From Salinigranum salinum (lineage in GTDB: Archaea > Halobacteriota > Halobacteria > Halobacteriales > Haloferacaceae): DNA of 64,000 bases. The notes beneath the pieces were generated by a model. That model saw only the letters and a program-made list of their open reading frames with translations, was not told the DNA's origin and ran no database searches. The stretch spans positions 372,001 through 436,000 of the forward strand of contig NZ_VTOJ01000001.1 of the NCBI RefSeq assembly GCF_009176545.1, read 5' to 3'. Both the position numbers and the translations under genes were made by a program. Below, piece after piece: positions 20,914-24,093 of the stretch; within the stretch, counting starts at the first letter, position 1; each line of letters opens with the position of its first letter.

Positions 20914-21082
20914 CTCCGAGGAGACGAGGAGACCGACCGTCGTCACGCCGACGAGTCCGACTCTCTTCCCGCTGACGAGACCACCCCTCGTCGCCCCGTC
21001 GTCCACCCCCCACCACGCCGCTGCGACGCTCGGCGGGTTCCGGGTCCACACCGTTATGACGGTCTCCGTCGAAGCGACACCG

Positions 21083-21397
21083 ATGATCAAGCTCGTCGTC
21101 ACCATGGACCGGCAACCGGGCACCACGACCGCGGCGTTCCGCCGCTACTACCGCGAGGAACACGCCCCGCTCGCCCGGCAACTCCCCGGTCTCGAACGCT
21201 ACACCGTCTCGTTCCCGCTCGTCCCCGAGGACAGCCCACACGACGCGCAGGCCGAACTCTACTACGAGAGCGCCGAGGCGCTCGACGAGTCGTTCGCCTC
21301 GGCGACCAGCACCGACGTGAGAGACGACCTGGCGGCTTTCGCGGACACCGACTCAGTCACGCGGTTCGTCGCCGACGAGGAGGTCTTCCTCGAGTGA
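21083..21397 (+). CDS. EthD-like dimeric alpha/beta-barrel protein
   Basis: 104 residues from the ATG at 21083 (MIKLVVTMDRQPG); an ATG at 21054 is also in frame. The pattern RRYYREEHAPLARQLPGLERYTVSF is the EthD signature found in small ferredoxin-like proteins that form dimeric barrels. The C-terminal VTRFVADEEVFLE is likewise typical. Some relatives act with cytochrome P450 or as small-molecule enzymes; nothing nearby indicates a substrate. Confidence 0.78.
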   Translation: MIKLVVTMDRQPGTTTAAFRRYYREEHAPLARQLPGLERYTVSFPLVPEDSPHDAQAELYYESAEALDESFASATSTDVRDDLAAFADTDSVTRFVADEEVFLE

Positions 21398-21520: not shown

Positions 21521-22426
21521 TCAGCCCACCGGCGTCACCGTCACCGAGACCACGTCCGCGACCGCGGGGTAGCTGAACCCGTCGTCGACCTCGGCGACGA
21601 GTCGGACCGTCCCGTTCTCGTCCTCGCCGGTGTCGGGCCCCGACTGCCGCGGTGCCTGGTTCGGCCCCGTCCCCGGCTCCTCGTTCACCTCGGTGCCGGC
21701 GTCCCACAGTTGGACCTGGTCGGTCACGTCACCGTCGACGGGCTCGTCGCCGTCGAACAGTGCGATCCCCTCGGGACCGGGCGCGTAGAAGAGGTCGTTC
21801 GACTGGATGAACATCGTGACGAACGACAGCCGCGCGTCGTGTCCGGCCGTCACCTCGAACTCGTAGGCGTCGCCGGACGCGATCGGTCCCGCCGATGACG
21901 CCCCTGCCGGTGTGTCGAACGCGTCGCCCGTCGTGGTCATCTCCATCCCGCCGAGCGACTCGACGAGCGTGGCGGGCATCCCGTCCTCGGCGATCCGTTC
22001 GAGCCCCTCGCTGGCGGGTTCGCCGGGCGTGAAGAGTACACCGGGATCGGTGTGGACGGCGAACGCACCCGGCGAGAGCGGGGCGGCGACGCTCCCGTCC
22101 ATGGTCCGGAGCGTGTCTCCCGTCGAGACGTTCTCGATGCGGACCCGGAACTCCTGTGCCATCGACTCCCCGCCGTCCATGTCCGACTCGGTCATCGAAT
22201 CGTCGTCCATCTCCGTCTCGGTCATGCCGTCGTCCATGCCCGACTCGGTCATGCCGTCGTCCATGTCCGTCTCGGTCATCGAACCGTCGTCCATCCCCGA
22301 CTCGGTCGCCGTCGCCTCGCCGCTGCCGCCCTGTCCGGCACAGCCAGCCAGTCCAGCGAGCAGGACGCCACCACCGATCTGTACGAACCGCCGTCTACTC
22401 GGGGTACTGATACTGTCGTCGATCAT
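21521..22426 (-). CDS. Tat lipoprotein with Met/Asp-rich repeats and a spondin-N-like domain
   Basis: 301 residues from the ATG at 22426. A twin-arginine signal (RRRFVQIGGGVLLAGLAGC) with lipobox C29 marks export in folded form and lipid anchoring outside the membrane. Residues 45-89 hold ten methionines in a repeat of about MDDGMTE (45, 50, 55, 59, 64, 68, 73, 78, 83, 89). The rest resembles a spondin-N fold protein (FRVRIENVST, PGAFAVHTDPGVLFTPGEPA, RLSFVTMFIQSNDLFYAP). Such proteins in prokaryotes are secreted and uncharacterised. The Met-rich arm could bind soft metals such as Cu(I). The two genes upstream on the same strand are DUF2182 and DUF1326. Confidence 0.82.
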   Translation of the reverse strand: MIDDSISTPSRRRFVQIGGGVLLAGLAGCAGQGGSGEATATESGMDDGSMTETDMDDGMTESGMDDGMTETEMDDDSMTESDMDGGESMAQEFRVRIENVSTGDTLRTMDGSVAAPLSPGAFAVHTDPGVLFTPGEPASEGLERIAEDGMPATLVESLGGMEMTTTGDAFDTPAGASSAGPIASGDAYEFEVTAGHDARLSFVTMFIQSNDLFYAPGPEGIALFDGDEPVDGDVTDQVQLWDAGTEVNEEPGTGPNQAPRQSGPDTGEDENGTVRLVAEVDDGFSYPAVADVVSVTVTPVG

Positions 22427-22661
22427 TGACGTTTCACGTCTCGACCGTCGCCACCAGTCCGAATGAACATTTTTCAAACTTCGTATATATTGTCCACTGA
22501 ATCCGGGACGACTCTCTGCCACTGTGCGCCGAATTCGGGCTCACTCTCTCCCAAATTCGACGTGACTCGACTCGATCCGACGCGAGTCGGCTCAACGGTC
22601 CGCCGACGAACCGGTGTCGTCGACTCCCGACTCCGGACGGCGTCCCCGGTTGGAAATTCAG
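22427..22661 (-). promoter_or_regulatory. Promoter region of the spondin-like lipoprotein gene
   Basis: On the minus strand the element caatatatacgaag (plus-strand 22481-22495) is the only strong TATA-like sequence in this 235-base gap. It lies about 60 bases before the ATG at 22426. The gap separates the lipoprotein from the DUF1326-DUF2182 pair, so it is probably transcribed on its own. Confidence 0.45.
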
Positions 22662-23480
22662 CTACACGATCCCGACGATCGGACCGACGAGCACGACGAC
22701 GCCGGCGACGCCTGCGGCGAGACCGACACCGCGCGCGAGCGTGTCGCCCCACGACACCGTCCGCTCAACCGAGAGCACGACGGTGATGGCCGCCATCCAG
22801 ACGAGGTTCATCGTCCCAACGACGACCATGAACGCGAACAGCGCCCAGCAGCAGCCGAGGCAGAACCAGCCGTGTTCGAGACCCATCCGTGCCGCGCCCC
22901 GAACGCCGGGGTGGTGATGGGTCAGCAGGAATCCCAGGGGCGTCCGGCAGTGGCTGAGACAGCGGTCCTTGTACGGCGACAGCTGGTACGCCGCGAGCAC
23001 GAGGAGCGTCCCCCCGAGGAGGACGCCCGACCCGGCGACGCGGGCGAGCGGCGTGAAATGGTTCACGACCAGCGGGACGACGCCGACGCCGGTCCAGAGC
23101 AGCGTGTACGCCCCGAGGAACGCGCCGACACGCGCCAGTCGCTCGTGTCTGTCCCGGCCGGCCAGCGTGCCGTGGTACATCCTCACCAGCGGAACCGACG
23201 ACGGGTACATCATCGCGACCATCATGACTCCCCACATGAGGAGGTAGAGCACCCAGCCTGACACTCCCGCTCCCGTCGCCATCATCTCGGGCACGCCCGG
23301 ATCGGCCATGTCCATCGTCATACCCATGCCGCCGCTCGTGCCGGGCATCGGGAGCAACTGACCGATCATCGCGAGCCAGGCAAGCAGGGCGACCACGTAC
23401 ACGACGAGTCCGACGAGACGCGTCTCGCGGAGGCCGAGCGTGCTTCGCCGTCTGCTGCCGACAGTTTCTCCCGACCCCAT
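22662..23480 (-). CDS. DUF2182 membrane protein (predicted metal-binding)
   Basis: 272 residues with about seven hydrophobic helices. Family blocks are MMVAMMYPSSVPLVRMY (86-102), LSPYKDRCLSHCRTPLGFL (167-185) and EHGWFCLGCCWAL (202-214). Candidate metal ligands are C174, C178, H188-H190, C207, C210 and C211. The loop after the first helix is Met-rich (M45, M52, M54, M56, M58, M66, M67). DUF2182 proteins are described as predicted metal-binding integral membrane proteins with no proven substrate. The gene starts 4 bases after the stop of the DUF1326 gene, a clear operon. Confidence 0.88.
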   Translation of the reverse strand: MGSGETVGSRRRSTLGLRETRLVGLVVYVVALLAWLAMIGQLLPMPGTSGGMGMTMDMADPGVPEMMATGAGVSGWVLYLLMWGVMMVAMMYPSSVPLVRMYHGTLAGRDRHERLARVGAFLGAYTLLWTGVGVVPLVVNHFTPLARVAGSGVLLGGTLLVLAAYQLSPYKDRCLSHCRTPLGFLLTHHHPGVRGAARMGLEHGWFCLGCCWALFAFMVVVGTMNLVWMAAITVVLSVERTVSWGDTLARGVGLAAGVAGVVVLVGPIVGIV

Positions 23481-23484
23481 GGCC

Positions 23485-24093
23485 TCAGGCGTTCGTCAGC
23501 TCGAAGTCACAGACGAAGGCGTTGTTGCCGCCCAGGTCCCAGTCGAACCGGTCGTTGTACGACACCGTGGCGCTCGTCGACTTGGCGACATTCATCACAC
23601 CACTCGACGTGAACGGGTGCGGCGAAATAGTCGCCGCTTCCTGGTTGAATCCGACCCTCTCGACTACCTCCATGGCGATGTCGTCGCCGAACGACACGCG
23701 GGTGGTGTCGCCGTCGCGCTCGAACTCGACCGGCCCTGTCGCCACCTCGGTCGACCGGAAGTGCGTATCGGCCACGGGGGCGAAGATTCCCCCTGTCCGG
23801 CCCAGATAGATATCCTCGAGGGCGGCCCGCTCCTCCTCGCTCGCCTCCTCGTCGACGAGCAATACCACGTCGTACTGCGTCGAAGGGTCGAAAAACACGC
23901 CCTCGTCGCTGGAGATGAGAAACGCCGCTTTCCGTCCACTCAGATCCACGTCACCGTACTTCCCGCTCGTGATGTTCCACGCCAGCGCGGCCGTACAGAA
24001 ATCGTCGTCCGGCGGCTCTAACATGATGCACTGGCAGGCCACGTCGCAGTTGCAGGCCTCTGCGTACTCCCCGCTGAGTTTCCAGGTCTCCAT
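23485..24093 (-). CDS. DUF1326 family protein with N-terminal cysteine cluster
   Basis: 202 residues. The N-terminus carries the family's cysteines: C14, C16, C20, C22 (EACNCDVACQC) and C33, a plausible metal site. GVFFDPSTQYDVVLLVD and FRSTEVATGPVEFERDGD belong to the beta-rich remainder. There is no signal peptide, so the protein is cytoplasmic. DUF1326 and DUF2182 are recurrent neighbours in bacteria and archaea, and their function is unknown. It is the first gene of a two-gene operon, with a promoter in 24094-24242. Confidence 0.88.
   Translation of the reverse strand: METWKLSGEYAEACNCDVACQCIMLEPPDDDFCTAALAWNITSGKYGDVDLSGRKAAFLISSDEGVFFDPSTQYDVVLLVDEEASEEERAALEDIYLGRTGGIFAPVADTHFRSTEVATGPVEFERDGDTTRVSFGDDIAMEVVERVGFNQEAATISPHPFTSSGVMNVAKSTSATVSYNDRFDWDLGGNNAFVCDFELTNA

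Follow-up and report, generated by a model that had tools for sequence, protein, structure and literature searches.

Three adjacent genes whose products are marked by Met and Cys raise the question of whether they form a single metal-handling system. They lie on the minus strand at positions 21521-24093 of a 64,000-nucleotide stretch of the Salinigranum salinum genome (contig NZ_VTOJ01000001.1, positions 372,001 to 436,000; hereafter, the window) and encode a DUF1326 protein, a DUF2182 membrane protein and a spondin-domain lipoprotein. An earlier note on this DNA had picked out the three genes by their Met and Cys features, which our gene calls, profile matches and residue counts bore out, and had proposed that all three handle copper or another soft metal together. 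We found that DUF1326 and DUF2182 form a true, widespread two-gene unit, for which we favor a role in soft-metal transfer. Comparison across genomes indicates that the lipoprotein stands beside this unit only incidentally.

DUF1326 and DUF2182 form a widespread two-gene unit

The two genes of the pair, both on the minus strand and 4 bases apart, are:

23485..24093, minus strand: DUF1326 (PF07040) protein of 202 amino acids, with Cys at 14, 16, 20, 22 and 33, by eye without an apparent signal peptide; predicted acetoacetate-decarboxylase-like barrel
22662..23480, minus strand: DUF2182/PpoB2-family (PF09948) membrane protein of 272 amino acids, assigned by profile match, conservation and motifs; AlphaFold model with a predicted local distance difference test score (pLDDT) of 82.3

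Family membership is clear, with scores of 124 bits against the PF07040 profile (cut-off 25) and 195 bits against PF09948 (cut-off 28.7); the window's nearest named matches include Halocatena, Haloferax and Natrinema. We performed a class-wide profile survey of 242 haloarchaeal genomes, in which genes were called with a codon-bias caller and matches on different contigs cannot be judged for proximity. DUF2182 was present in 40 genomes, the spondin domain in 50 and DUF1326 in 24, of which 23 exceeded the cut-off. All 23 of these DUF1326 matches lie within 1.5 kb of a DUF2182 gene, and the remaining match, below the cut-off, has none within that distance. Neighborhoods were read at 22 of the 23 pair loci (L051 lacked a DUF1326 gene call), several with truncated gene calls.

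The DUF2182 alignment was also scanned against the wider genome collection, where the best 80 of at least 581 confirmed stretches were kept and the longest open frames served as gene calls. DUF1326 was found on the same stretch in 76 of these best 80 loci, directly upstream and on the same strand in 63 of the 76, and the next commonest neighbor cluster occurred at 6 of the best 80. The paired loci span Alpha-, Beta- and Gammaproteobacteria, Actinomycetota, Acidobacteriota, Chloroflexota, Gemmatimonadaceae, Nostoc and others, and plasmids carry both families as well (15 records with DUF1326, 60 with DUF2182). Haloferax mediterranei ATCC 33500, for one, has the pair on pHME505. Because the wider scan selects on DUF2182 motifs, samples chosen without the motif were used as a check. 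In line with the earlier description of the two families as recurrent neighbors, these results establish DUF1326-DUF2182 as a genuine two-gene unit.

A Cys motif of DUF2182 follows the partner gene

The window's DUF2182 protein carries all three Met and Cys ligand motifs, namely MMxxMMxP (M-M-V-A-M-M-Y-P, residues 86-93), CLxxC (C174-L-S-H-C178) and CxGCC (C207-L-G-C-C211). The seven Met reported earlier for the loop after helix 1 were found in residues 43-72. This loop has no Lys or Arg, whereas the N-terminal tail has four such residues and the CLxxC segment has three. An alignment of 77 DUF2182 sequences was drawn from 80, with the near-duplicates L143, L162, L190 and L196 left out. In it, M90, M91, C174, C178, C207, C210 and C211 are kept in 77/77, a figure that leans on motif-based retrieval and on related sequences that are not independent. 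Met plus His averages 19.8% in the loop versus 7.9% elsewhere in the protein, and 64 of the 77 sequences have at least three Met or His between helices 1 and 2. Since the Cys residues are conserved across phyla and the loop is enriched in Met and His, the Met and Cys features of the pair, judged from these alignments, exceed chance. One DUF2182 protein (L053, genome G213) has a His-rich loop (HDHSTHDHS...) after helix 1 rather than a Met-rich one, as if the ligand type had been swapped.

The strict C-x-G-C-C motif follows the presence of the partner. Among haloarchaeal DUF2182 proteins, collected via the Pfam profile and, for sister species, via DNA similarity, it occurs in 26/26 with DUF1326 alongside and in 0/23 without (26 rows, less three fragments). 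Among plasmid records collected by protein similarity, it is present in 21 of the 22 rows with DUF1326, the exception being half of a broken gene; of six rows without DUF1326, four lack it and two have C-x-G-S-C. These plasmid counts are to be read with the sampling in mind: L108 to L113 were picked via a DUF1326 search and the rest came from 40 of the 60 DUF2182 records, and the search leans toward window-like sequences. In both sets, shared descent inflates the agreement of motif and partner. The broken gene lies on a Ciceribacter thiooxidans plasmid (L267), where an apparently disrupted DUF2182 copy in two frames stands beside DUF1326 and was counted twice, one row being motif-less.

As none of the 23 haloarchaeal members lacking DUF1326 has the motif, C-x-G-C-C marks, on this comparison, a DUF1326-linked subgroup and not the whole PF09948 family. 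Such a split is what one would expect if the membrane Cys site of DUF2182 serves DUF1326. To this extent the partner-linked motif, as read from the alignments, is new.

A conserved five-Cys site on a predicted barrel

DUF1326 contains the C14-x-C16-x3-C20-x-C22 cluster given in the earlier note; to this we add a fifth conserved Cys, C33, which the note did not have. All five are kept in 67 of 68 sequences across phyla (from 69 calls, leaving out the near-duplicate L143 and the truncated call L197). Pfam gives no function for PF07040, and in the literature that we searched, no paper mentioned DUF1326 or COG5588.

Structure prediction places DUF1326 on an acetoacetate-decarboxylase (ADC)-like barrel, the predicted fold resembling that of MppR (PDB 4jmd) at 14% identity in alignment and Foldseek TM-scores below 0.5. 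This match is to enzymes, not metal carriers. DUF1326 could be read as an ADC-like-fold enzyme whose substrate is a small organic molecule, and which might, for example, build or degrade a metabolite that binds metal; DUF2182 would then be its transporter or metal supplier. We regard this as quite unlikely. ADC enzymes use a catalytic Lys, whereas the 68 DUF1326 sequences have conserved Cys and no invariant Lys, the commonest Lys column reaching 32%. Furthermore, hhalign of these sequences against 19 haloarchaeal PF06314 rows, a set holding no bacterial ADC rows, gave no profile relation (probability 0.1). The conservation of five Cys on a predicted ADC-like barrel is a newly found feature of the family.

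The pair is a candidate copper transfer system

The lead on function comes from DUF2182. A review (PMC2855505) describes PpoB2 of Marinomonas as delivering copper to the tyrosinase PpoB1, and calls it the first member of COG5486 to have been given a role. Pfam now names PF09948 "PpoB2, copper chaperone" (formerly DUF2182). Given this published role and name, DUF2182 is not the undescribed family of unknown role that the earlier note took it for; the note's proposal of copper or a soft metal holds up better, with copper the most likely metal and the best reading for DUF2182. The window protein resembles PpoB2 of Marinomonas mediterranea as a multi-helix membrane protein of the same family with soft-metal ligand motifs, a likeness drawn at family level. 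The two differ in context: the PpoB2 operon holds a tyrosinase, whereas the window gene adjoins DUF1326, and a profile search of the window's genome found no tyrosinase.

Haloarchaeal DUF2182 genes without DUF1326 have neighbors of their own. Among 22 such loci (21 stretches read; L083 was not called), a heme-copper oxidase subunit I (COX1) gene lies within 8 kb at 12, an ArsP_1 permease gene within the same distance at 10 and a small HMA-like protein gene within 4 kb at 6. These identities, like that of the molybdenum enzyme below, rest on Pfam matches of one representative per cluster. The DUF2182 proteins of the oxidase loci (L070-L078, L083, L084 and L090) keep MMxxMMxP and lack CxGCC. This arrangement looks like a copper-loading cluster for the terminal oxidase. 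On the Mycobacterium avium plasmid pMAH135 (L278), csoR and a multicopper oxidase gene flank a DUF2182 gene that encodes CxGSC and has no DUF1326 partner; a copper ATPase gene is also close by.

We favor, as the probable reading, that DUF1326-DUF2182 is a transfer pair for a soft metal, most probably Cu(I); the metal, topology, direction and client are our inferences. In the mechanism we propose, the Met-rich outer loop of DUF2182 would collect Cu(I), and the ion would pass through the membrane region by way of the conserved Met pairs (MMxxMMxP) and C-x-G-C-C to a C-L-x-x-C segment facing the cytosol. The soluble five-Cys barrel of DUF1326 would either receive the ion from DUF2182 or hand it over to DUF2182, so that it can be built into a copper protein. 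More tentatively, and with somewhat less than even confidence, DUF1326 may represent a new kind of metallochaperone: an ADC-like barrel that has lost its enzymatic function, holds Cu(I) with its five Cys and trades the ion with the C-x-G-C-C and C-L-x-x-C sites of a PpoB2-type membrane protein, in haloarchaea and many bacterial phyla.

Several observations weigh against this proposal, in addition to the retrieval bias behind the invariant residues and the enzymatic character of the fold match. The copper evidence concerns DUF2182 members that mostly lack DUF1326, and COX1 or ArsP-type permease neighbors occur at 0/23 pair loci. Among the archaeal and bacterial loci read, no client gene was found as a conserved neighbor of the pair. 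Tyrosinase is present in 1 of the 242 haloarchaeal genomes, which is not a pair genome, and multicopper oxidases, found in 208 of the 242, therefore do not discriminate. Outside haloarchaea the link between motif and partner is not absolute, since four of the best 80 motif-chosen loci have no DUF1326 on the stretch (among them L139 and L183, near contig ends) and the two plasmid C-x-G-S-C copies have no DUF1326.

The Cys pairs could also be redox-active. On that account, DUF2182 and DUF1326 would swap disulfides across the membrane, and CxC, CxC, CLxxC and CxGCC, paired motifs spread over the two proteins, would be thiol-disulfide centers and not metal ligands. The closest tree relatives of the window pair, L048 and L049, have a glutaredoxin-like gene (PF05768) near their pairs, and a Sulfitobacter plasmid DUF2182 gene without DUF1326 adjoins a gene with the annotation disulfide bond formation protein B, near a glutaredoxin gene. 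However, the glutaredoxin-like cluster occurs at only two of the 23 pair loci, a pure disulfide relay would not be expected to have invariant Met pairs or a loop rich in Met and His, and PpoB2 is reported to act in copper transfer (PMC2855505). We thus hold a disulfide relay to be unlikely. In L048 (9637-10703), the glutaredoxin-like gene is followed, 97 bases upstream of DUF1326, by a plastocyanin-family gene, which speaks for copper at this one pair locus.

Another reading has the pair conferring resistance to a different soft metal or metalloid, such as silver, mercury, gold or arsenic, and not supplying copper. Soft ligands suit several metals, both families travel on plasmids, and one M. 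avium plasmid copy without DUF1326 has arsM, a regulator of the ArsR type and a second P-type ATPase in its vicinity, although a copper ATPase is nearer. Yet the direct literature (PMC2855505) is on copper, and no recurrent resistance neighbor was found beside the pair in the best 80 loci, which leaves a resistance role for another metal improbable. Copper transfer remains the reading we prefer.

The spondin lipoprotein appears to be an incidental neighbor

The remaining features of the locus are:

21521..22426, minus strand: Tat-type lipoprotein with a Met/Asp/Gly linker and a spondin domain (NF038123), judged to lie outside the metal pair
22427..22661, minus strand: 235-base gap from the DUF2182 stop to the lipoprotein ATG, read from sister-species DNA similarity and an upstream alignment of three species

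The lipoprotein open reading frame spans 21521-22522, and the better start is the ATG at 22426, giving 301 amino acids. The spondin-N-like body named in the earlier note was recovered with both profiles, at 24.8 bits for Spond_N (cut-off 24) and 165.1 bits for NCBIfam NF038123 (cut-off 40). Ten Met fall within the 62-residue linker, between residues 45 and 89, and the note's count of ten Met over these residues fits the start at 22426. An EthD-domain gene (PF07110) lies beside the lipoprotein gene at 21056-21397; it was not among the genes called at the matching place in three sister species.

The note had proposed one soft-metal system of all three genes, in which the Met-rich lipoprotein captures metal for the pair. 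The genes are adjacent and on the same strand in this genome, and both the lipoprotein and DUF2182 have Met-rich stretches. The linkage is not conserved, however, which is one of the findings that the note itself had named as refuting the system. Across the surveyed genomes, 1 of 54 spondin matches lies within 10 kb of DUF1326 or DUF2182, and that one is the window itself. A spondin gene is also present in 2 of the 24 DUF1326 genomes, a co-occurrence not beyond chance (Fisher p 0.18).

The three sister species in the genus tell the same story. Two of them retain the gene order of the window: in G244 it is BrkB-like, spondin lipoprotein, PAP2 and, identified by eye, glutamine synthetase; G242 has this order plus one extra gene before PAP2; and the pair is absent from both loci. 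The DNA similarity of these two lipoprotein loci reaches window position 22521 and ends before the pair. G243 has neither the lipoprotein nor the pair at the locus. All three species have a DUF1326-DUF2182 pair elsewhere, whose DUF1326 shares only about 42% identity with that of the window. When the DUF1326 and DUF2182 proteins are joined in one tree, the window clusters with two genomes of another genus in the same family (support 1.0), separate from the pair of its own genus.

Because the lipoprotein locus exists in sister species with no pair in it and the tree separates the window pair from that of its own genus, the pair appears to have arrived independently at the lipoprotein locus, via transfer or a different paralog history, and the adjacency to be incidental. 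The lipoprotein-side part of the 235-base gap, which itself sets the lipoprotein apart from DUF2182, is similar in sister species without the pair there, and thus is probably the lipoprotein's own promoter region. We therefore rejected the three-gene system, which we consider extremely unlikely.

The linker points the same way. Of 19 spondin proteins read, the window's included, 14 are lipobox proteins with 3 to 12 linker Met, one is a lipobox protein without Met, and four gene calls have no lipobox, one of which (L093, called from an internal start) is Met-rich. Besides the window, the Met/Asp/Gly linker is thus common to 14 of the 18 other haloarchaeal NF038123 proteins read (13 lipobox proteins with at least three Met, plus L093), and of all these linkers only the window's has the pair alongside. 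A comparison with generic lipoproteins had a control of eight proteins only, so its p value carries little weight. Strict DNA patterns for the linker repeat matched 2 of 60 genomes (the window lipoprotein and that of G244) and, in a second set, 4 of 232. The four proteins of this second set (L257, L258, L259 and L260) are small and look, by eye, secreted or membrane-anchored, consisting largely of Met/Asp/Gly repeats and lacking a spondin body.

With looser Met/Asp/Gly linkers in most spondin lipoproteins read, the idea of a locus-specific feature was discarded. Since the linker is common among spondin lipoproteins with no pair nearby and also occurs in secreted repeat proteins that lack the spondin domain, it is, on this sampling, best described as a trait of such surface proteins.

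Spondin genes have a recurrent setting of their own. In the 16 neighborhoods read of the 54 matches (among them L093-L107), a molybdopterin oxidoreductase gene recurs at 11, a helix-turn-helix (HTH) regulator at 10 and a small 99-residue membrane protein at 11; together with the spondin gene these make up a conserved haloarchaeal cluster. The window differs from these loci in having none of the three neighbor clusters.

Implications

Sequence alone is not enough to call a Met-rich linker of a haloarchaeal lipoprotein a metal site, and a false lead is thereby removed. If our reading of the pair is right, a very common gene pair, one member of which is without a described function, would turn out to traffic copper through ligands that can be tested, and the Cys motif that follows the partner gene would suggest which copies of DUF2182 need DUF1326.

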